Assembly (NCBI GenBank): GCA_002686955.1
Contig: NYZA01000026.1
Span: 1 to 10,068 of the forward strand
Direction: 5' to 3'
Source: Gemmatimonadota bacterium
Lineage (GTDB): Bacteria > GCA-2686955
DNA length: 10,068 bases
The notes below the pieces were generated by a model that made no database searches, was not told the origin of the DNA, and was given only the letters and a program-made list of their open reading frames with translations. Shown piece after piece: positions 1 through 10,068 of the stretch. The first letter of the stretch is position 1. Each line of letters begins with the position of its first letter. The translations under genes were made by a program, and so were the position numbers.

Positions 1-897
1 GTGGGCTCGCAAGGGGCGGCTGGCCGCAGGCTCCCAATCGAGGTTCGAGGGGGCGGTCACGAGCACCGGAATCGCGCCGGCGGCCTTCGCTTGACGGACC
101 ATCGCGAGGATCGAGATCTCGAGGTGATCGATGGTGCCGACAATGTCGGCGTGCAGGGGATCGGAGGCGATGCCGAGCGTGCGGATCTCTTCACCGAACA
201 TCGGCTTGCCGAAAAGATCGCGATTGGCGGCTTCTACATTCTCGGAATCGGAGATCGATCGTCCCCGAAGCGTGACGAGGGCCGAATTGAGGAGGCGAAA
301 GGCGGCGGAGTGGCCGGCCAGCTCCCGCGCCTTTACCGACGCGGGATGGCGCTCGAGAATCGCGCGGTAGAAATGCGGTTCCAGGAACTCGTTGTGTCCC
401 ACGTCGATCGTGACGATGTCGGCGCCGGCCTCAAGCGCGTCGCACAAGATGTAGGGGAGGCGATACGAGGCGTGGGCGTTGCCGCCGAGGTTGAGGACGC
501 GAACGCGGCGATTCCGAATCCGGTGCGCGAGCGCGCGCTCGGCGAGGGCCGGATACGCGTCGGCGGGATCGGGGAAGGGGAAGCCGTAGGTCACCGATCC
601 GCCGAGACAGAAGATGCGCAGCTCCGACGTCTCGGGCACAGCGGGGAAGCTCAGCTGATGAAAGGAGTAGCTGTTGCCGACCTTGGCCGGGTTGGTCTCG
701 AGACGGCCGGAGTGATCGGGGGAAGGGACGAATAGCGGCTCGAGGCCGTAGAAACCGACGAAGGGGTCTTCGTGGTCGAGGCCGCCGCCGCGAATCACCA
801 GGAGCGCCCGGGAGCAGAGCTCGAGGCCCAGGAGGACGAGGCCGAAGGTCAGCGCCGCGAGGGCGATCCGTTTTGCGGGGCTGCTCTGCCGGTCCAT
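1..897 (-). CDS. SGNH/GDSL-family hydrolase, membrane-anchored, 3' end beyond the window
   Basis: This is an open frame of 299 codons read from an ATG at 897 leftward, with no stop before the window edge, so the C-terminus is missing. Residues 9-35 form a hydrophobic segment after a short basic N-terminus, consistent with a signal anchor. Block I is LGGSVTYG at 98-105, with Ser101 as the expected nucleophile in a GGS rather than GDS context. NLGGNAHASYR at 136-146 is the block II region. VGHNEFLE at 166-173 is block III and typical of a GHNEFLE-type subfamily of large SGNH proteins, which often carry TPR repeats C-terminally. TAPSNLDWEP at 281-290 also fits that subfamily. The Asp-x-x-His block lies off the window. 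A weak AGGGA lies about 11 nt before the ATG. It is divergent from the sulfatase fragment (154 bp gap). Family members are esterases or acyl-group hydrolases acting outside the membrane; the substrate cannot be told. Confidence 0.85.
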   Translation of the reverse strand, partial: MDRQSSPAKRIALAALTFGLVLLGLELCSRALLVIRGGGLDHEDPFVGFYGLEPLFVPSPDHSGRLETNPAKVGNSYSFHQLSFPAVPETSELRIFCLGGSVTYGFPFPDPADAYPALAERALAHRIRNRRVRVLNLGGNAHASYRLPYILCDALEAGADIVTIDVGHNEFLEPHFYRAILERHPASVKARELAGHSAAFRLLNSALVTLRGRSISDSENVEAANRDLFGKPMFGEEIRTLGIASDPLHADIVGTIDHLEISILAMVRQAKAAGAIPVLVTAPSNLDWEPAASRPLRAH

Positions 898-1051
898 CGA
901 TTCGGGGGTCCCTGGGGGGCCTGTGCTCCCTCGCCACACGGCGGCACCATATCATGCGCGGGGTCGAGCTTCGGGCTGGGGGGCGGAGCTTGCCGGGGGG
1001 CTGGCGCGGCCGTGTTATTCTTCGGCCGATCACGGGGGGGGCGGAGGTTCG

Positions 1052-1654
1052 ATGCATCGAGGAACGAAGGCCGACCCGCGCGGTGGCATTCCCGTGCGCG
1101 CGGCCCTATCCGGAATGGCGGCGTTGATCGCTACGGGATGCGCCGGTCCACCGCCCCCGCCGGCTCCCCCGCCGGCTCCCCCGGCGGCCCACCCCAATAT
1201 CGTGCTGATCTCGCTCGACACCTTTCGCGCAGATCGCATGTCGTGCTACGGATACGATCGGCTGACGACGCCGCGAGTCGATTCACTCGTCGCGGAGGGC
1301 GCGCTTTTCGAGGCCTTCTACTCCGCATCCGACTTCACGTTGCCCTCCCACGCCTCTCTGTTTACCGGTCGCTACCCATCCGTGCACGGCGTGACGCAGA
1401 ACGAGCACGCCCTTTGCGATGCGATCCCCGTGTTGGCGGAGCATCTGGCGGAGCGAGGCTACCGAACGGTCGGTTTCTACGACAACGACTTTCTCTCGCC
1501 GGCGTACGGCTTCGGCCGGGGTTTTGCTCGATACGACCGGTTCTCGGATAGTCGAACGCTGAGAGAGCTGTGGGAGACACTTCCCGATCTGATCTCCGCT
1601 TCTGATGAAACACCCTCTCGTCTGCATCGGCTGGGTCCTCTTCCGCGCCGATAG
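1052..1654 (+). pseudogene. Sulfatase N-terminal fragment (alkaline phosphatase superfamily), C-terminus lost
   Basis: The ATG at 1052 was chosen because GGAGG lies at 1043-1047 and a lipoprotein-like leader follows (ALSGMAALIATGC, Cys30 as candidate lipidated residue), then a Pro/Ala-rich linker (32-47). NIVLISLDTFRAD at 49-61 is the first sulfatase block, with Asp56 as a metal ligand. TLPSHASLFTGRYP at 97-110 is the active-site block. The nucleophile position holds Thr97, not Cys or Ser, so formylglycine formation is not expected; such sulfatase-like proteins are common in high-GC environmental bacteria. Similarity to the family seems to stop near residue 183 (about 1600), after which the frame reads arginine-rich non-family sequence to a stop at 1652-1654. 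Family members usually exceed 400 residues, so more than half, including the second metal-binding half, is missing. The downstream DNA encodes an MBOAT C-terminus in another frame, so this looks like a deletion fusion. Confidence 0.8.
1156..1179 (+). repeat. Two tandem copies of a 12-nt Pro/Ala-coding repeat
   Basis: The unit cccgccggctcc occurs twice in perfect tandem and is followed by a partial third copy. It lies in frame within the sulfatase fragment and codes for the Pro-Pro-Ala-Pro linker between the lipobox-like Cys and the catalytic domain. This is a flexible spacer that can expand or contract by slippage in four-codon steps. Confidence 0.75.
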
Positions 1655-1916
1655 CTTCGCTTCGCTTTGGACCTATCTGACTCGGATGTTCACCGTCTGG
1701 GATATCGGCTCGATCGGCCAGATGCAGGGACTGGCTTGGACGCTATAGTTAGCGACACTCGTCGCCACCCAGAGGCTCCTCGGGGAGACGGGGCGCGAGA
1801 TGCGGATTTGGGATCGAATGCCGGCGCCGGTTCAGGGCGCGGGGCTCGCGCTCCTGGTCGTGGCTGCCGGCCTGCTCCATGTCGACAGGCTTGCGTTCAT
1901 CTACTTTCAGTTCTGA
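1605..1916 (+). pseudogene. C-terminal remnant of an MBOAT-family O-acyltransferase (AlgI/DltB-like)
   Basis: Read in the frame of 1605, the DNA codes for about 103 residues resembling the end of AlgI-type membrane-bound O-acyltransferases. CIGWVLFRADSF near the start matches the conserved WVxFRAxS helix, followed by WTYLTRMFTVWD. A hydrophobic final helix (GLALLVVAAGLLHVD) then leads to the terminal FIYFQF, a hallmark ending of this family, and TGA at 1914-1916. An in-frame TAG at 1746-1748 interrupts the frame between codons for Leu and Leu. The first 350 or so residues, including the catalytic His region, are absent; the sequence immediately upstream belongs to the sulfatase fragment in a different frame. 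Intact relatives transfer acyl groups to exported polysaccharide and commonly sit beside SGNH proteins, which this window has in three copies. It is almost certainly non-functional. Its last 10 bp overlap the convergent oxidoreductase gene. Confidence 0.75.
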
Positions 1917-4093
1917 TTGGGTTGGGAGCCTTGGGGCACAAGACGGATGGCGACGTTTTTGTATGCCGGCGTGCGGGACCGTGGGTCAACCGCGGTCGGA
2001 TAGAGAGCGTTCGCCTCGGGGTAGTACATCAATGCGCAGCCCGGGCTGATGTCGAAGGGGCGAACCGTGATCGCCGGTAGCGCTCCATGGTCGCTTTCGA
2101 CCCGCACCTTCTGATCGTGGCGGAGATCGAGACGCGCAATATCGGCTTCATTCATCAGAATCACGTCTCGACGGGATTGGTGGCGATAGAGATCTTCTTC
2201 TTCGTAGACGACGGTGTTGAACTGCCCTTCGGATCGCACGCTCATCAGGAGAAGCTCATCGTCGGTACATCGATTGTCGCGGGGAATCTCGATCGCGTGG
2301 AATCGGGCGCGTCCGTCCTCGGTGGGGAAAGAGGGCTCGCGAATCGCGCGGCCGGGGATGTGGAACTCTTCCCCGCTCGCCAGTCGTGAGAACCCGGGAA
2401 TCGCCTTCGCGATCAGCTCTCGAATATTGTCGTGATCGCCCATCGCTTCCCAGTCGACCGGAGTGTCGCTCGAGAAGAGCCGCCTGGCGACATCGACGAT
2501 GATCGCCGTTTCGGTCCGGATTTTCGGATGGCGCGCCGGTCCGCCCGCGCTGCGCCGCACGAAGGAAAACATCGATTCCTGGGTGGTCGTCTGTTCCTCT
2601 TCGTCGCGGGCCCGCACCGGCAGAACAATCGTCTCCTTGCCGATTCCGTGGGCGTGTCCCGTGTTGAGAGTGGTGCTGAAGTAGACGACCTGGTCGATGG
2701 CCCCCATCGCTTCTCGGGCAAATCGGCTCGCGGGGTTTGAGCCGTAGAGATTGCCGCCCAGGCACCAGGCCACTCGCATCTCTCCCGCATGGGCGCGCTC
2801 CATGCAGCCCATCGTATCGAGCCCCTTTTCGGTCGGCAGCTTCTCGCCGAGCTCCCGCTCCAGGCGCTCGATGAGCGCAGCCTTCATTCGCGGCACAACC
2901 GCCATCGTGCCCATCCCCTGCACGTTCGAATGCCCTCGCAAGGGCAGCAGGCCCGCTCCGGGGCGCCCCACCATGCCGCGCATCAGCGCCAGGCTCGCGA
3001 TGCATTGCACATTCTCCACACCGTGGATGTGGTGGGTGATTCCCATCGCCCAGGCGAAAATGGTTGCCCTCGATTCGAGATAGATTTCAGCGGCGGCTCG
3101 GATCGCGGTCTCGTCGACTCCGCTCGCGGAGACGATCTCCTCCCAGCTCGACCGTTGAATCGTCGACCACCACTCCTTCCAGCCGCTGGTGTGCTCGGCG
3201 ATGAAAGTGTCATCCGCGGCGCCGGCCTCGATCACACACCGGGCGATCCCGGTGAAAAAGGCGATATCGCCGCCGATGCGAGGCTGCACGTATAGGCTCG
3301 CGATCTCCGACCCGAAGAACAGGCTGCGCCAGTCCGATGGAACGCGGAAGCTGCACAGGCCGATCTCGCGTGCTGGATTGACCACCACCACTTTTCCGCC
3401 GCGGCGGCGCAAGGAGACTAGCTCTTTCATGAAGCGTGGGTGGTTCGAAGCCGGATTGGCTCCGATCAGAAAAAGGGTGTCGCACCCGCGGACGTCCGCC
3501 AGACGTATCGAGGCCGTTCCGGAGCCGATCGAGGCACCCAAGCCGACCCCTGATGCTTGGTGACAGTAATAGGAGCAATTGTTGACGTTGTTCGTGCCGT
3601 AGATCCGCGCGAAGAGCTGCAATAGAAAACCGGCTTCGTTCGACGATCTGCCGCTCACATAGAAGAACGAATCTCCCGGATCGGTGTCGGAGAGCTTCTT
3701 CGCCGCGCGCCCGATCGCCTCGTCCCAGCCGATCTCTCTGTAGTGCTCCTTCGCCGGCTCCAGCAGGATAGGCGAGGTCAAGCGCCCGGCCTGCTCGAGC
3801 TCGCGCGAGCTCATCGCTCTCAGCTCCCGGGCGCCGAATCGCCCGAAAAAGCCCTCGGGAACGCGCCCCCGCATGTCGGCGGCCATCGCCTGGACCGACT
3901 TCTTGCACAGCTCGAAGCGTCCACCCAGTTCATTGCTCATGCCGCCGGCTGCCCCCCCCATGCCGAGCGCGCAGGCCTTGCAGGTGTTGGGTGAGCGCAT
4001 CGCCGACAGGAAACTCCGCAGCCCTCCGGATCGCCCGGCTTTGCTCAGGGTGTAGCGGATTGCGGGCCATCCGCCCGCGGAATCGATGCTCAT
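1907..4093 (-). CDS. YdeP/FdhF-like molybdopterin oxidoreductase alpha subunit
   Basis: This 728-residue protein is of normal length for the YdeP-type clade (oxidoreductase alpha, molybdopterin) related to formate dehydrogenase H. GGWPAIRYTLSKA opens it. The Cys pair CKAC (Cys38, Cys41) and Cys63 in ELCKKS mark the N-terminal Fe-S region. NNCSYYCHQASGVGLG at about 172-187 corresponds to the NNxxxxCHEAxxVGL block of this clade. DTLFLIGANPASNHPRF, GKVVVVNPAR and RGHSNVQGMGTM are cofactor-binding blocks, and the C-terminal domain (MSVRSEGQFNTVVYEEEDLY onward) is the MopB-CT fold. Members are cytoplasmic and bind bis-MGD; the true substrate is poorly known, and E. coli YdeP is linked to acid resistance. 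ATG at 4093 is preferred because a candidate promoter lies just upstream; a GTG at 4117 would add 8 residues. No fdhD or partner subunit is next to it. The frame is intact although its neighbours on both sides are broken. Confidence 0.9.
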   Translation of the reverse strand: MSIDSAGGWPAIRYTLSKAGRSGGLRSFLSAMRSPNTCKACALGMGGAAGGMSNELGGRFELCKKSVQAMAADMRGRVPEGFFGRFGARELRAMSSRELEQAGRLTSPILLEPAKEHYREIGWDEAIGRAAKKLSDTDPGDSFFYVSGRSSNEAGFLLQLFARIYGTNNVNNCSYYCHQASGVGLGASIGSGTASIRLADVRGCDTLFLIGANPASNHPRFMKELVSLRRRGGKVVVVNPAREIGLCSFRVPSDWRSLFFGSEIASLYVQPRIGGDIAFFTGIARCVIEAGAADDTFIAEHTSGWKEWWSTIQRSSWEEIVSASGVDETAIRAAAEIYLESRATIFAWAMGITHHIHGVENVQCIASLALMRGMVGRPGAGLLPLRGHSNVQGMGTMAVVPRMKAALIERLERELGEKLPTEKGLDTMGCMERAHAGEMRVAWCLGGNLYGSNPASRFAREAMGAIDQVVYFSTTLNTGHAHGIGKETIVLPVRARDEEEQTTTQESMFSFVRRSAGGPARHPKIRTETAIIVDVARRLFSSDTPVDWEAMGDHDNIRELIAKAIPGFSRLASGEEFHIPGRAIREPSFPTEDGRARFHAIEIPRDNRCTDDELLLMSVRSEGQFNTVVYEEEDLYRHQSRRDVILMNEADIARLDLRHDQKVRVESDHGALPAITVRPFDISPGCALMYYPEANALYPTAVDPRSRTPAYKNVAIRLVPQGSQPNQN

Positions 4094-4102
4094 ACTCCGC
4101 CC

Positions 4103-4130
4103 AGAATAGGTTGACACCTCTTCTCGTCAA
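4103..4130 (-). promoter_or_regulatory. Candidate sigma70-type promoter for the molybdopterin oxidoreductase
   Basis: Read on the minus strand, TTGACG (4130-4125) is followed after 16 nt by TATTCT (4108-4103), 5/6 and 4/6 matches to the -35 and -10 consensus. The start of transcription would fall near 4096, only a few bases before the ATG at 4093, implying a leaderless or nearly leaderless message. That would exclude the GTG at 4117, which lies between the two hexamers. On the plus strand a perfect TTGACA (4111-4116) could serve the GNAT gene, but no good -10 follows it. Confidence 0.35.
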
Positions 4131-4131
4131 C
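4110..4131. repeat. 6-10-6 inverted repeat in the divergent promoter region
   Basis: gttgac (4110-4115) and gtcaac (4126-4131) are perfect reverse complements separated by 10 nt. The dyad covers the candidate -35 hexamers of both divergent transcripts, the position expected for an operator. It may equally be the simple consequence of two facing TTGAC hexamers. Confidence 0.4.
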
Positions 4132-4160
4132 TCGAATCTCTCTCTCGAGGAGACGGACCG

Positions 4161-4982
4161 ATGAGAACCCCGACGGGCCGCGAATTCGAAGCTGCGTCAC
4201 TCGGCGCCTGGCCTGCCCTCGAGTCGATCCGAATTGGTGACTGGGTATTGCGGTTCTCGGCAGGCTTCACGCGACGCGCAAACTCGGTCCAGACCGGTCG
4301 GGGCGCGGGGCCGGGCACAGAGTTGAAGAGAGCGTTGTTGGCCTGTGAAGAGGAATACCGGGGGCGGGGGTTGCGCCCGATCTTCAAGATCGTCCCTTGG
4401 ACGGAACCGATCTCTCTAGATCGCAAGCTTGCCGCCCGCGGATACGGCGCGGAGGGGGAGGTGTGTGTGCGGGCGGTGAGAGCTGTTGATCTCTTGGGAG
4501 GTCGAGCGGCGAAGAGAGGATTGAAGATCAGCGCCGATGTGGACGAGAGCTGGGTCGAGGCCATGACCGGATTCTATCCGCGGCTGCTGGGGCACAAGAG
4601 GATCTTCGAGAAGATCATCGATCGGATACAGGGCCCGCGCGCTTTGGCGACGATCCGGCGGAATGGTGTTGCTGTCGCGGGAGGAATGGCGGTGCTGGGT
4701 GGCGCGCTGGTCGGCCTTTTCGATCTGGCTACCGACGAGAGAATGCGGCGCCAGGGATTGGGCCGCGATCTGGTGCAGGGCCTGGCGGCCTGGGGCGCGG
4801 CGGGGGGAGCCCGTTGGGCCTACTTGCAGGTGGTTGATCGAGCTGCAAATGTATCCACCCTTCAAATCGGCTACGCCGATGGAGTGGCTGCAAGTGAACT
4901 ACGACGTAATTTGGACGGGATGCTGGAGCAAAGGTGTGGTTTGCATCGAGGCTGGGGCCAACGGAACCCAAGATCTCGATGA
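4161..4982 (+). pseudogene. GNAT-family N-acetyltransferase, C-terminus replaced by out-of-frame protease DNA
   Basis: The ATG at 4161 follows GAGGAG (4147-4152) at 8 nt. The product begins like two-domain GNAT proteins (IGDWVLRFSAGFTRRANSV at 25-43, typical of the N-terminal half). The acetyl-CoA-binding motif A is FDLATDERMRRQGLGRDL at about 187-204, with RRQGLG as the pyrophosphate loop, followed by WAYLQV at 219-224. Normally the next residues would be the Asn-Ala-x-x-Leu-Tyr and Gly-Phe strand and helix; instead, from about residue 226 the frame reads unrelated sequence to a stop at 4980-4982. The same DNA from about 4850 codes in another frame for an S8 protease, so the last 30 to 40 residues of the acetyltransferase were lost at a junction. 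The acetyl-CoA site is present, so residual activity cannot be ruled out, but the final structural elements are gone. The acceptor substrate is unknown. Confidence 0.7.
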
Positions 4983-5403
4983 TCCGAGCTGGGAAGGGGT
5001 CTTCGATCGCAATCTGCGCGATTCCGGCGCCGTGATGGTCGGAGCCGGCACGCCGACCGGCAGAGTGGCCGAGTGGTTCACCAACTACGGAAGTCGCATG
5101 GATGTGCACGCATGGGGATCGGAGATCGTGACGACGGGCTACGGAGATCTCTACCGGGGAGGTAGCCTGCAAACCGAGTACACATCCGATTTCGGCGGTA
5201 CCTCAGGTGCCTCGCCGATGGTGACCGGGGCCGCGCTCTGTCTCCAAGGCATCTCGCGACAAGTTTACGGGACTCACCTGCCTCCGCCCCTGCTGAGGCG
5301 CTTGCTGAACGAAACCGCGGTGCCTCATCTCGATCCAGTGAAAGAGATCGGCCCGAGACCCGATCTCGGGGCGGCGGTGGAGCGTTTGTTGGAGGGGTTG
5401 TAA
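4849..5403 (+). pseudogene. C-terminal remnant of a subtilisin-like (S8) serine protease
   Basis: This frame (184 residues counted from the ATG codon at 4849, which is probably not a real start) ends with TAA at 5401-5403. It holds the later half of an S8 catalytic domain: MEWLQVNYDVI at 11-21, the oxyanion-hole strand VVCIEAGANG at 30-39 with Asn38, DLDDP at 42-46, then WFTNYGSRMDVHAWG at 76-90. The nucleophile block FGGTSGASPMVTGAA (115-129) carries Ser119. The Asp and His of the triad lie in the N-terminal half, which is missing because the upstream DNA is the acetyltransferase. The oxyanion block reads AGANG where AAGNG is usual. With two of three catalytic residues absent the fragment cannot be an active protease. 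No ribosome binding site was seen for it. Intact relatives are mostly secreted. Confidence 0.8.
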
Positions 5404-5482
5404 GGGCGGCGGGCGGAACGATCCAAATGGGAGCGGAGGGGGAGTAGACGATTGTGCGCTTGGCCTCGGCATTTGGCGGGGT

Positions 5483-6004
5483 CTATAGGTCTATCGACTC
5501 CGGCTCGTAGTACTCCCGCGGGTGCTTGCAGCACGGACAGGACCCGGGCGGTTCGGTTCCTTCGTGGATGTAACCGCACACCGAACACTTCCAGCGGATC
5601 GCTTTCTCGCGTTTGTAGACAGTGCCCTTCTCGACCATCTCGAGCAGCCTTTTGTAGCGATCGCGGTGCTCCGCTTCCACTCGCGCGATCATCCTGAAGA
5701 GGAGAGCCGCCTCCTTGTTGCCTTCCCCCTTCGCCGCCGCTGCGAATTCTGGATACATTTTCGTCGTCTCGTAGTGCTCACCCTCGATCGCCTCTTTTAG
5801 ATTCGCCGCCGTATCCCCGATCCCTCCGAGCAACGCGAATTCGTCCTTCGCATGTCTCATCTCGTTCAGCGCTGTCTCCTCGAAGATCTTGGCGATGTAG
5901 TGATAGCCCTCTTTGCGCGCCACATTCGCGAAATAGGTGTACATATTGCGCGCCTGGCTTTCGCCGGCGAAGGCGGTCTTCAGATTCTCTTCAGTCTCTG
6001 ACAT
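5483..6004 (-). CDS. rbr: Rubrerythrin
   Basis: This 173-residue protein has a ferritin-like diiron domain followed by a rubredoxin domain, the standard rubrerythrin order and roughly the usual size. Candidate diiron ligands are Glu15 (FAGESQA), Glu48 and His51 (LNEMRHAKDE), Glu76/Glu79, and Glu110/His113 (VEAEHRDRY). The rubredoxin iron site is Cys140, Cys143 (WKCSVCGY), Cys156 and Cys159 (SCPCC); an extra Cys158 sits inside the second pair. The protein reduces hydrogen peroxide in the cytoplasm of anaerobes and microaerophiles using electrons passed through rubredoxin-like iron. The ATG at 6004 is chosen because AGAGGA lies 7 nt upstream; a GTG at 6031 would add 9 residues without such a site. 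It ends convergently with the protease remnant (79 bp apart) and is divergent from the quinone oxidoreductase. An 8-bp dyad at 6071-6093 lies upstream and may be regulatory. Confidence 0.95.
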   Translation of the reverse strand: MSETEENLKTAFAGESQARNMYTYFANVARKEGYHYIAKIFEETALNEMRHAKDEFALLGGIGDTAANLKEAIEGEHYETTKMYPEFAAAAKGEGNKEAALLFRMIARVEAEHRDRYKRLLEMVEKGTVYKREKAIRWKCSVCGYIHEGTEPPGSCPCCKHPREYYEPESIDL

Positions 6005-6070
6005 CGGTGGTTCCTCTTGGCGTGTCGGCACAGCTGGTGGATCCGCTTATGCTACCCGGGGAGCTTCTTT

Positions 6071-6093
6071 TCGCAGTCTACCTTGGACTGCGA
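6071..6093. repeat. 8-bp perfect inverted repeat upstream of rubrerythrin
   Basis: tcgcagtc (6071-6078) and gactgcga (6086-6093) are perfect reverse complements around a 7-nt centre. The dyad lies 67-89 bp before the rubrerythrin ATG, between two divergent oxidative-stress-type genes, and no T-run follows on either strand in the right place for a terminator. A regulator-binding site is the most natural reading, but the protein is unknown. Confidence 0.45.
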
Positions 6094-6131
6094 CACGTCA
6101 GAGAGGCAAAAGCAATTCTCGCTCGATATTT

Positions 6132-6166
6132 GATCCGGTGCCACCCGACCCTCGTGCGGATCGGGT
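6132..6166. repeat. Overlapping inverted repeats in the quinone oxidoreductase leader region
   Basis: gatccg (6132-6137) pairs with cggatc (6157-6162), and acccga (6143-6148) pairs with tcgggt (6161-6166). The two dyads share bases 6161-6162, so their hairpins would be mutually exclusive. A -10-like taaaat (6166-6171) follows directly, but no -35 hexamer is visible at 16-18 nt. This could be an operator or chance in GC-rich DNA. Confidence 0.25.
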
Positions 6167-6222
6167 AAAATTCGCCTGCAGAATGGACTGCTGACGGCAT
6201 TCGGAAACCACTGGAGGCGATC

Positions 6223-7176
6223 ATGAAGGCTATGGTGATCAATCGATACGGAGATGCTGACTGCTTCGAGCTTCAAGAGATCGAGCCGCCCGAGCTCAAA
6301 TCGGATGAAGTGCTGATCAAAGTGCATGGTTCCAGCGTCAATCCTCTGGACGCCGGCATCCGAGCCGGCATGCTCAAGACTTTTGTCCGCCTCGATCTCC
6401 CGGCTGTTCTCGGCGTTGACGTCAGCGGGGAGGTCGTCGAGGTAGGCGGGCAGGCGCGACGCTTCAAGGTCGGAGATCGTGTCTACGCATACACCGGCGT
6501 CGGTGCCGGGGGAGGCTACGGCGAGCTGGCGGCGGTCGCCGAGGAAAGCCTGGCGCGCGTCCCCGAGAATCTGGATCTGGTGAAGGCTGGATCGGTGCCC
6601 GGTGCCGGCGCGACGGCGTTCGAGGCGTTCACCGTACACGCCCCGCTGGAGCCGGGCATGCGTGTCTTCATCAACGGCGCCGCGGGGGGTGTCGGGACAT
6701 TCACGATCCCTGTCGCCAAATCGATGGGGGCTCATGTGACCGGCACCTGCAGCACCGCGAAAGCGGACTTCGTGAGCCGGCTCGGCGCCGAGGTCATCGA
6801 CTACACCAAAGGCAATCCCTTCGCCGCGAAACAATCATGCGACGTCGTCCTCAACACGGTTCGCGGAACTGATGAAGGGGAGCTTCGCACGATGCTCGCC
6901 AGGGGCGGCAAGCTGGTGACGATCGTCGGTACCCCGGTCGACCTCGCGACCTCGAAGCTCGGCAGTATCGTACGCACGACAAAGGTGATTCCATTCTTCG
7001 TCAGCTCGAAGTCGACGTGCCTCGAGGGGTTTTCAAAGTTGATCGAGGACGGTGAAGTCGAACCGATTATTGAAAAGGCCTATCCCCTTGTCGACCTCTC
7101 CCAGGCGCATCGGCGCGTGGAGACCGGCCGCGTAACCGGTAAAGTTTGTGTCGATGTGAGATCGATTTGGCAATGA
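6223..7176 (+). CDS. Zinc-independent MDR quinone oxidoreductase-like protein
   Basis: This is an intact 317-residue member of the medium-chain dehydrogenase/reductase superfamily, quinone reductase (zeta-crystallin-like) branch. The GroES-like domain starts with MKAMVINRYGDADCFEL. VNPLDAGIRAG at 39-49 and LPAVLGVDVSGEVVEVG at 59-75 are characteristic blocks; the catalytic-zinc Cys and His of alcohol dehydrogenases are absent. The Rossmann domain has VFINGAAGGVG at 148-158 (AxxGGVG, the NADPH-favouring quinone reductase version), and LARGGKLVTIVGTP is the next strand. The expected reaction is NAD(P)H-dependent reduction of quinones or activated alkenes in the cytoplasm; the true substrate is unknown. 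GGAGG at 6213-6217 lies 5 nt before the ATG. The gene is divergent from rubrerythrin (218 bp), suggesting a shared stress response. Its last 144 bp are overlapped antisense by the unrecognised minus-strand frame. Confidence 0.92.
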   Translation: MKAMVINRYGDADCFELQEIEPPELKSDEVLIKVHGSSVNPLDAGIRAGMLKTFVRLDLPAVLGVDVSGEVVEVGGQARRFKVGDRVYAYTGVGAGGGYGELAAVAEESLARVPENLDLVKAGSVPGAGATAFEAFTVHAPLEPGMRVFINGAAGGVGTFTIPVAKSMGAHVTGTCSTAKADFVSRLGAEVIDYTKGNPFAAKQSCDVVLNTVRGTDEGELRTMLARGGKLVTIVGTPVDLATSKLGSIVRTTKVIPFFVSSKSTCLEGFSKLIEDGEVEPIIEKAYPLVDLSQAHRRVETGRVTGKVCVDVRSIWQ

Positions 7177-7761
7177 ACGACACTTGCACTTCCCTCCAGC
7201 ATGGTGCCCTCTATCGCGGCCGGAGGTGGACGTGACGGCGCGGACGCGTTCCGCCAATTCCCGTGCTTGGGCCGAGCCGTTCCGCTTGAAATCCGCTCTG
7301 ACCTCTTCAACATCGCGGAATCGACGCGATACCGTTTCCATGCGATCCCACGGATTCACGCTTGGCGGAACGAAAGAGGCCACGACCTCCGTCAAGGACA
7401 GCCGATCTTCGGCAAAGACGACGATGCCCATATCATCCTCGGGGTTTCCAAAGCCGTGAAAACCGTATCGGATGAGCATGCTCTTGAAGTTGGACAATAG
7501 AAGCCGCAACCGTTCAATTCGAACACCGTCCCACCATGGGGAGACGCCTCTGTCCCACTCCTTTTCCCAAAGGCGCCAGTACCGGCAACGGAACAGATTG
7601 ACCAGCTCACTGCGCCTCAGCCTCTTGTTCTTGGGCAGCACTTTCCAGTGCGGCCTGGTGAGGATGTGACGGTCGAACTCCCTTTGAAGATACGAAATTA
7701 CCTTGCGGTCATGCGGCAACGCTACTGTGCTCATGGTCCTCGAGCCAAACTTTGAAACCAT
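7033..7761 (-). CDS. Unrecognised protein, probably a fragment, in a lower-GC segment
   Basis: I do not recognise this frame. From ATG 7761 it gives 242 residues; ATG 7734 (with GAGG 4 nt before it) would remove 9. Residues 10 to about 180 look like real protein: charged and aromatic-rich, mostly helical in appearance, with LPKNKRLRRSELVNLFRCRY, WRLWEKEWDRGVSPWWDG, FKSMLIRYGFHGFGNPEDD and MGIVVFAEDRLSLTEVVASF. No transmembrane segment or known catalytic motif is visible. From about residue 181 (below 7222) the sequence becomes irregular, and the last 48 codons lie antisense to the conserved end of the quinone oxidoreductase, so the natural C-terminus is probably missing. Base composition is about 56 percent GC by count over 7301-7800, against about 70 percent over the first 100 bases. 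It lies directly beyond the break in the SGNH gene and may be part of a transferred segment. Confidence 0.45.
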   Translation of the reverse strand: MVSKFGSRTMSTVALPHDRKVISYLQREFDRHILTRPHWKVLPKNKRLRRSELVNLFRCRYWRLWEKEWDRGVSPWWDGVRIERLRLLLSNFKSMLIRYGFHGFGNPEDDMGIVVFAEDRLSLTEVVASFVPPSVNPWDRMETVSRRFRDVEEVRADFKRNGSAQARELAERVRAVTSTSGRDRGHHAGGKCKCRSLPNRSHIDTNFTGYAAGLHAPMRLGEVDKGIGLFNNRFDFTVLDQL

Positions 7762-7811
7762 GGTGTGCGATCGCCTCGGGGGCGTCAGTCCACGGGAATT
7801 CGAGAAGTCGG

Positions 7812-8468
7812 CTATACTTGGAACAAAAGCAGCATAGGAAAAGTGTCTATGAAAACGGGGGAACATCCCCCCACGTCGTCGAAGTCGTTGACGGGGTAAA
7901 GAACCAACACGCAATCGTCGATCGGCGCCGAGCGCTTCCGGTTCAGAAACTCCTGCAAGGCGAGGTACTCCTGGTCGGTGCCGTAGCCGGGGGAGGCCAG
8001 GTTGTACACGTTCCAGTCGGGCTGGGCACGCATCATCACCCGGGCCGCAACCTCATCGTCTTCCACACCCCAACCCCAGGCGATCGAGTCGCCGATCAGC
8101 ACGATGTTGCGGTGCCCCACGCGGGTCGGCGCCACGCTGCTGCGATAGCCGAGCTGATCGAGCTGCACAGACACCTCGAAATCGTAGCTTGCAAACACCC
8201 CGCTGCCGCCCGGGCGCCCCCGCCAGCCCAACCGTTCGTCGTACTGATAGATCGCTTTCTGCGGTGCCTCTTGGCGGGCACCGTGAACGGCGCAAGGTCG
8301 CAGTAGGCGAACCAGGATTTCGGCCGCGAAGAGGGCTAGAACGACCCCGCCGAGCACGAGAGCGAGCTTGGCGGGCGGAGACAGCGACGGCGCGCCGGCG
8401 TCTTCTTGCTCGCCGGCTCCTTCTTGGATGGACATGGGTCGAGTTTCGTCCTGATGAGGCCCTACCAT
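7812..8468 (-). pseudogene. SGNH/GDSL hydrolase, truncated after block III
   Basis: The frame codes for 218 residues from ATG 8468, which directly follows the TAG of the upstream SGNH gene, suggesting translational coupling; ATG 8435 is an alternative that removes 11 residues. A hydrophobic anchor spans about 35-57 (LALVLGGVVLALFAAEILV). Block I is VLIGDSIAWGWGV at 123-135 with Ser128, block II is YNLASPGYGTDQEYLAL at 155-171, and block III is VLYPVNDFDD at 189-198 with Asn194. Family similarity then stops near 7872. The remaining 20 residues (ending FPMLLLFQV) match nothing in the family, and the C-terminal block with the catalytic Asp and His, normally 100 or more residues further on, is absent. 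The DNA beyond is the unrecognised lower-GC segment. An inactive product is expected. Intact relatives act at the outer face of the membrane on acyl esters. Confidence 0.75.
7850..7872 (-). terminator. Short GC hairpin followed by GTTTTC at the truncated end of the SGNH gene
   Basis: On the minus strand GGGGGA (7871-7866), loop TGT, and TCCCCC (7862-7857) form a 6-bp perfect hairpin followed by GTTTTC. It resembles a weak intrinsic terminator but lies inside the SGNH reading frame, about 40 bp before its stop, exactly where family similarity ends. The T-run is short, so the call is tentative. Confidence 0.3.
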
Positions 8469-9611
8469 CTAGATGGGCGGCTCGAAGGGGAAAGCGTTGG
8501 CGCGCATCGAGACGGCATGCACGATCCCGTCGGCGATGGCACGGGCCAGTATTTCGTGACCTTTGGCCCCCGGATGGATCGGGTCGTCGGGATCGAGGCG
8601 CAGCGAGAGGAGGCCTACCGAGCCGAACTCCACGCGCACATCGATCTCCTCCAAACCGGCACGGGCCAGCTCGAGAGAGACGATCTCTTCGGCGACGCGA
8701 TGCGTCGGTGATCCGGCCGAGGTGGCCAGCCCCGGCACCACGAGCGCGAGCACACCGAATTCGTGCTCCACGGAGAGTTCGGCCAGGCGTTGGAATGCAT
8801 GCCGTATCCGGCCGACCCGAGCTTCATCTCGATACCAGGAGGAGGGCCATTCGCTCGATGCCGCGGCCATCATGGACCTCAATGTCGTTTCGTCGGCGGC
8901 GATCGGATCGATCAGAGCGGCGTACTCGGCGCGAAAGCGCTCCGGATCGTTCTGGAGGGCGACCGACTCGGCCTGGTGTAGGCCATCGAGCCTCTGCACG
9001 AAGAATTGGACAATCCGTAGATGGAAGATTCCGGCGCGTTCGAGCCGTCTCATTTTCGTCGTGAAATCGAGGTTGACCGTGTGCACGCCTGCGTCGTTCA
9101 GGCAGTACTGGAGCACGACCCAATCGGGATCCAGCGCTTCGAGTCGCGCTTCGAGCGCCGCCACTTCTTGAACCGTGTCGTAACCTGTGACCGCCAAGTT
9201 CAGAACCTCGACGGAATCGAGCCGATCGAGCAAGAGGGTCCTCAATCGTGCTGGGAACTCGAGCCCCTCCGCCAATCGGTTGCCGAACGCGATCGAGTCA
9301 CCGATCACCAAGATGCGGACCCTGTCCCGGCGCACGGGATCGAGCTCCTCGCCTCGAAAGCCATCGCTATTCACGGCGACTCGTGTTCCCCAGGCTGGTC
9401 CCGTGGCACCCGGGCGCAGCTCGTAATGCACGCCAGGAATATCGCTCGGACGCAGGAACTCGCCACGTCCGCTCCTCATCGCCGCGTACGGGTCGAATCG
9501 AGCGAGCCTGAGCGCCAACTCGCCCAGCCCCAGCGGGACGATGCATGCCAAGGCCAGAGCCGTGAGACGAAACTTCCGGGACTCGCTGCGCCCTTTTCGA
9601 GAACCGTTCAT
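8469..9611 (-). CDS. SGNH/GDSL-family hydrolase, membrane-anchored, complete
   Basis: This is a 380-residue protein with a basic N-terminus (MNGSRKGRSESRKFR) and a hydrophobic anchor at about 15-36, so the catalytic domain is probably outside the cytoplasmic membrane. Block I is ILVIGDSIAFG at 100-110 with nucleophile Ser106. Block II is LNLAVTGYDT at 137-146, with Gly143 for the oxyanion hole. Block III is LQYCLNDAG at 167-175 with Asn172. Block V is DPIHPGAKGHE at 343-353, giving Asp343 and His346 of the triad, so all catalytic elements are present. The ATG at 9611 is chosen because the hydrophobic leader follows directly; the same frame is open further upstream but reads low-complexity Arg/Ser/Pro sequence. 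No strong ribosome binding site is visible. It lies upstream of the truncated SGNH gene with zero spacing (TAG then ATG), as in a tandem pair. The role is likely ester hydrolysis or acyl handling on a surface polysaccharide; the substrate is unknown. Confidence 0.88.
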   Translation of the reverse strand: MNGSRKGRSESRKFRLTALALACIVPLGLGELALRLARFDPYAAMRSGRGEFLRPSDIPGVHYELRPGATGPAWGTRVAVNSDGFRGEELDPVRRDRVRILVIGDSIAFGNRLAEGLEFPARLRTLLLDRLDSVEVLNLAVTGYDTVQEVAALEARLEALDPDWVVLQYCLNDAGVHTVNLDFTTKMRRLERAGIFHLRIVQFFVQRLDGLHQAESVALQNDPERFRAEYAALIDPIAADETTLRSMMAAASSEWPSSWYRDEARVGRIRHAFQRLAELSVEHEFGVLALVVPGLATSAGSPTHRVAEEIVSLELARAGLEEIDVRVEFGSVGLLSLRLDPDDPIHPGAKGHEILARAIADGIVHAVSMRANAFPFEPPI

Positions 9612-10068
9612 GGTGTCGATTCTAGCGCGCGACCACCAGCATTCGGGTCGTTCGTGCCGATGGTCCCCCAGGACCTGCCGCGCCTGAGCTTCCGGCGCCC
9701 CTCTCCCACCCGCTGGCGAGGACTCACCTCTGGCTGGCCAAGAACGAACTGCTCTTGGCGCTCTTGGGCCGACCTGAAGGAACAACTCCCCATGTTTGCC
9801 TCCCACCGTCGGTTTGGAAAATGTGGAGGTTCCGGAGCTAACGTTTCGACATAAGCGTGAGATCGTGGGGAGGACCGCGCACTGGCGGGCGGAGATCCGT
9901 CGTTCCTGGCCAGGCCAGCCCAGTGGCTCCGCTCCGAGCGAACTTCCCGCCCTGCGTGCCCGCGAGGCGGCACTGGTCGGCGCGCCCCTCTCTGCGTCGG
10001 GGCTCGAGCTCCGCGTCCGCGGCAAGCTCGCGCGAGTGATGGCTGAGCGACCTCGCGGATCGATGCGA
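9612..10068. other. No confident gene; one open frame runs off the right edge
   Basis: This 457-bp stretch upstream of the complete SGNH gene holds no recognised domain, RNA gene or repeat. On the plus strand a frame opening at GTG 9823 (after an in-frame TGA near 9772) stays open for 82 codons to the edge. Its product starts VEVPELTFRHKREIV, is Arg/Ala-rich and matches no family I know. GC-rich DNA often gives such frames, so it is only a candidate 5' end of a gene. The promoter of the SGNH pair should lie here, but I could not pick one out. Confidence 0.25.

Follow-up and report, generated by a model that had tools for sequence, protein, structure and literature searches.

The closest described systems are ordinary pseudogenisation by internal deletion, IS3-family elements, and IS-adjacent deletions, the last of which occur often in the long-term evolution experiment with E. 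coli (PMC11708052). A preliminary description of the locus analyzed here reported several abrupt gene joins within 6 kb with intact redox genes between them, and considered three causes, i.e., internal deletions sparing some genes, an unknown recombination process, and a chimeric metagenomic contig. Our analysis suggests that what looks like an odd series of chimeric genes can be accounted for by ordinary decay and the scar of an IS.

Gene content of the window

The window, i.e., the whole stretch of DNA that was analyzed, is the entire contig C26 (NYZA01000026.1) of 10,068 bases. It belongs to the bin G000, a draft genome of 4.28 Mb in 270 contigs that is 84.5% complete. G001 was the only other genome of the same family in the comparison, and the remaining "relatives" are related to G000 at the domain level only. 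DNA matches of G001 to the window were few and lay on separate G001 contigs, and a search of the whole window against plasmids gave no match. The features around the joins are as follows:

1052..1611, plus strand: front part of a sulfatase (Pfam PF00884; alignment with full-length sulfatases of G000 and G001)
1605..1915, plus strand: remnant, very probably the C-terminal tail of an MBOAT O-acyltransferase (translation, in-frame TAG, alignment with an ORF beside an annotated MBOAT gene)
1907..4117, minus strand: FdhF/YdeP-family molybdopterin oxidoreductase, full length (TIGR01701)
4161..4838, plus strand: GNAT acetyltransferase, nearly complete (PF24553; NF049894 positions 62-280 of 300)
4834..5403, plus strand: back half of an S8 (subtilase) protease (PF00082 positions 148-273 of 288; identity with G001)
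5483..6031, minus strand: rubrerythrin, full length (NF045767 over cut-off; PF02915, PF21349)
6223..7176, plus strand: quinone oxidoreductase (PIG3-type), full length (TIGR02824; PF08240, PF13602)
7180..7734, minus strand: orphan open frame (open frame only)
7771..7869, plus strand: right end of an IS3-family element, with transposase C-terminus and terminal repeat (copies in G000; IS3-type OrfB ends in loci L096 and L097)
7870..8468, minus strand: SGNH hydrolase, cut at the IS tip, 3′ part missing (match on G001 contig C419; PF13472)

The redox genes are intact, as the preliminary description had stated. The molybdopterin oxidoreductase matches TIGR01701 over its full length (positions 2-743 of 744) and, at 673.5 bits, clears the cut-off of 582; the rubrerythrin exceeds the NF045767 cut-off. 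The PIG3-type quinone oxidoreductase is also full length, its residues 1-311 aligning with TIGR02824 positions 1-324 of 325 at a score below the cut-off of that model. The frame whose antisense end had been counted among the breaks does exist, but as an open frame only, and below about position 7180 it lies opposite the 3′ end of the quinone oxidoreductase gene, in antisense. Searches of Pfam, PHROGs, plasmids, 386 genomes, and viral contigs gave no credible homologue, and the frame may therefore be a fragment of a lineage-specific gene or not a gene at all.

Three SGNH/GDSL hydrolase-like genes lie within the 10 kb (window 1-939, 7870-8468, and 8469-9611). Together with the MBOAT-like remnant, they are possibly left over from an acyl-transfer gene cluster. 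The contig itself terminates within a dispersed repeat (window 9838-10068), which matches more than 30 places in G000 at about 68-98% identity, has one weak match in G001, and is absent from Rfam.

Truncated genes at the sulfatase and GNAT joins

The front part of the sulfatase covers only positions 1-130 of the 301 positions of the Pfam Sulfatase domain. In full-length G000 sulfatases, the usual PFFLFLHxxDxHxPY stretch comes next; the window, in contrast, departs from the family at about 1605-1618. Past the join, a changed frame reads KHPLVCIGWVLFRADSFASLWTYLTRMF...FIYFQF and then a stop. This tail aligns with a C-terminal ORF from a Caballeronia plasmid, where the ORF adjoins a gene annotated as an MBOAT O-acyltransferase, and the alignment takes in the GWVxFRADxFA motif (GWVLFRADSFA in the window) and the last residues. 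Searches with the tail gave no match among Pfam and NCBIfam profiles and none among solved structures and viral contigs. The MBOAT core with the catalytic histidine is absent from 1605-1915 and would sit upstream of the join. Judging from the alignment, the tail is very probably an MBOAT C-terminus, which we file as a remnant. An in-frame TAG at 1746-1748 interrupts the tail, which is therefore decayed. Its end meets that of the molybdopterin oxidoreductase gene tail to tail. The sulfatase/MBOAT join proposed earlier was thus confirmed by the broken-off sulfatase profile, the frame change, and the alignment of the tail to the MBOAT-side ORF.

The GNAT gene lacks about the last 20 model positions, and its open frame extends out of frame to 4982. 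The join lies at about 4830-4840, where the back half of the S8 protease takes over in a frame other than that of GNAT; its front half is missing. Of the Asp/His/Ser triad, the protease retains the Ser half (GTSGASPMV) only, and it was filed as a remnant. Its tail shares 40-44% identity with a frame of 643 aa on G001 contig C466. A search of G000 with the front half of the G001 protein, run without a positive control, found nothing, which suggests that the lost front is not present elsewhere in the genome as far as the incomplete bin covers it. The GNAT/S8 join also stood, with the GNAT model followed to position 280 of 300 and the S8 back half continuing in another frame. The same-strand arrangement that had been called unusual concerns two gene-gene joins only, which is no more than chance, and we give it no weight.

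An IS3-family right end beside the SGNH hydrolase gene

The SGNH hydrolase protein is 66% identical to a protein on G001 contig C419, and at the DNA level this match extends as far as window base 7870 and no farther; the PF13472 match of the hydrolase is partial and below the cut-off. Base 7869 is the outer IS tip, and the join lies exactly at 7869/7870. The SGNH join noted earlier is thus real, but the content described as unknown on its other side is an IS3-family right end. On the plus strand, 7771-7869 reads ...RLGGVSPREFEKSAILGTKAA and a stop, followed by the terminal repeat ...TGTCTATGAAAACGGGGGAACATC, ending GGGGGAACATC. The exact 24-base IS end was not found in GTDB contigs. A looser pattern of the IS tip matched four GTDB contigs and led to IS3-type elements in proteobacterial MAGs, with OrfB ends (e.g., ...HLNQLSPLEFEKRQIAL and a stop) directly before a like tip. 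The OrfB of L097 ends in ...LSPLEFEKRQIAL and a stop, in comparison with RLGGVSPREFEKSAILGTKAA and a stop in the window, and the transposase C-terminus stands directly before the right terminal repeat. In public genomes, IS3-type OrfB likewise lies directly before a like tip, and 7771-7869 is on this basis identified as an IS3-family right end. Only the last approximately 100 bases are present; OrfA, the OrfB DDE domain, the left terminal repeat, and a target duplication are not in the window, and we file the feature as a remnant and not as an element.

The 77 bases at 7793-7869 are repeated at four or five other places in G000, differently truncated. These copies are cut at 77 (C121), 54 (C176), and 49 (C32) bases from the common outer tip, C144 retains 22 bases of the IS end, and the end on C181 is a related one. 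The rve_3 matches of G000 included no intact copy carrying the IS end, and no IS left end was found at up to 3 mismatches. A comparison of the IS end with plasmids gave one 28-base match, which was judged to be chance. The loss of the IS body together with the 3′ part of the SGNH gene fits an IS-adjacent deletion. An integron attC site had been considered for the 77-base repeat and was dropped after the transposase C-terminus was recognized. On C181 (L086, 2675-3122), a reverse-transcriptase-like frame, of group II intron type by its motifs, abuts a truncated IS3-type end that is related to the IS end of the window.

Broken genes elsewhere in the genome

The survey of breakage in G000 covered sampled stretches of the genome. 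Sulfatase-domain matches numbered 42 in G000 and 29 in G001, a large expansion of the family. Most of the 41 other matches in G000 are full length, and a few are broken inside contigs. A sulfatase on C88 (L116, 2398-3228) has an in-frame internal deletion, with the catalytic middle gone and the natural end kept, and the sulfatase on C107 is a pseudogene with stops. On C117 (L169, 1-1011), a sulfatase front, an antisense PBP1A-like transglycosylase fragment, and a solute-binding-protein fragment occur within about 1 kb; the middle fragment is one that we take, from its motif, to be a PBP1A (penicillin-binding-protein) transglycosylase. This three-part join is the most suspicious case and possibly represents real scrambling or misassembly. 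In addition, C14 carries an S8 gene without the catalytic front, and C48 carries truncated sulfatase-modifying-factor and ketosynthase pieces. Two sampled contigs, C35 and C60, look intact. The partial sulfatases of G001 are mostly at contig ends. Two attempts to count broken coding segments on the basis of codon usage did not have the resolution to tell genomes apart. Breakage in G000 is thus patchy and, in these small numbers, not special to the window. Because broken genes are found on C88, C107, C117, C14, and C48, the breakage in the window is not one special 6-kb event.

Origin of the joins

Assemblers join contigs via long exact repeats. The longest exact match between the IS scar and another copy is 22 bases, and the longest exact matches at the other joins are 13-17 bases within the loci compared, all of them below usual assembly k-mers. 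Because of the 22-base limit and because the SGNH homology of G001 stops exactly at the IS tip, the IS join is unlikely to stem from k-mer misassembly or a chimeric contig, contrary to the chimera suggested earlier. The GC profile per segment, from about 0.53 at the IS scar to 0.67, did not separate the pieces. The MBOAT-like tail has decayed with a stop codon, pointing to a real, aged junction. The short exact matches, the precise IS terminus, and the mutated tail together favor real junctions. C26 might still join pieces that are not adjacent in the cell, through chimeric assembly or chimeric DNA molecules (e.g., from amplification), and the draft state of the bin with its 270 contigs, the contig end in a dispersed repeat, and the three unrelated fragments on C117 are in its favor. 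Considering the short matches, the join at a precise IS terminus, and the decay of the tail after truncation, we regard such an origin as unlikely, with chimeric molecules possible at the joins other than the IS join.

Several joins in the window and broken genes on other contigs could also reflect an unknown recombination process that acts on short homologies and repeatedly makes chimeric genes in this lineage. However, no motif or repeat is common to the joins, the IS end explains one of them and ordinary deletions explain the rest, and C35 and C60 look intact. Such a process, one of the causes suggested earlier, is not needed and appears very improbable. We give equally little credence to a dedicated or error-prone joining process that fuses fragments genome-wide and leaves IS right-end scars and chimeras such as C26 and C117. 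Open frames cross the GNAT/S8 join from both sides, as they would if the joined frames were functional fusion genes, but the frames differ at both the sulfatase/MBOAT and the GNAT/S8 joins, the S8 part has no front half, and a stop lies inside the MBOAT-like tail, leaving almost no likelihood for functional fusions.

The joins probably arose by several independent deletions, one of them IS-adjacent, in ordinary, decaying DNA under weak selection. The window combines truncated genes, an IS end with other truncated copies in the genome, and intact redox genes, and the truncated profiles on either side of each join support decay. At least three separate deletions would have removed parts of adjoining genes. 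One would have joined the sulfatase front to the MBOAT-like tail and another GNAT to the S8 back half, both presumably by ordinary deletion through slippage or end-joining, possibly on short repeats. A third, of probable IS-adjacent origin, would have removed most of an IS3-family element together with the 3′ part of the SGNH gene, leaving the right-end scar of about 100 bases. The position of the orphan frame against the quinone oxidoreductase may go back to yet another event. The redox genes may have been kept by selection or by chance. Against simple decay, three or four events in about 6 kb are dense, and the three unrelated fragments within about 1 kb on C117 exceed usual decay. Of the three causes considered in the preliminary description, internal deletions sparing some genes nevertheless agree best with the data, with IS activity as a concrete mechanism at one join.

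These results also call for caution, as joins can resemble fusions where a GC-rich genome has long open frames. If strain data gave many more joins than expected, the lineage would be a natural case for the study of deletion-prone repair.

Comparison with known systems

The locus resembles ordinary pseudogenisation by internal deletion in its truncated genes, its in-frame stop, the intact sulfatase paralogues in G000, and the sparing of functional neighbors. It differs in the crowding of several events into about 6 kb, and the reference is one same-family relative and not an undamaged ancestor. Compared with IS3-family elements, the window has about 100 bases of the right end, without the left end or target duplication and with no intact copy found in the bin, whereas its transposase C-terminus directly precedes the terminal repeat, as in L096 and L097. 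The SGNH gene breaks off precisely at the IS tip, in the manner of the IS-adjacent deletions described previously (PMC11708052).
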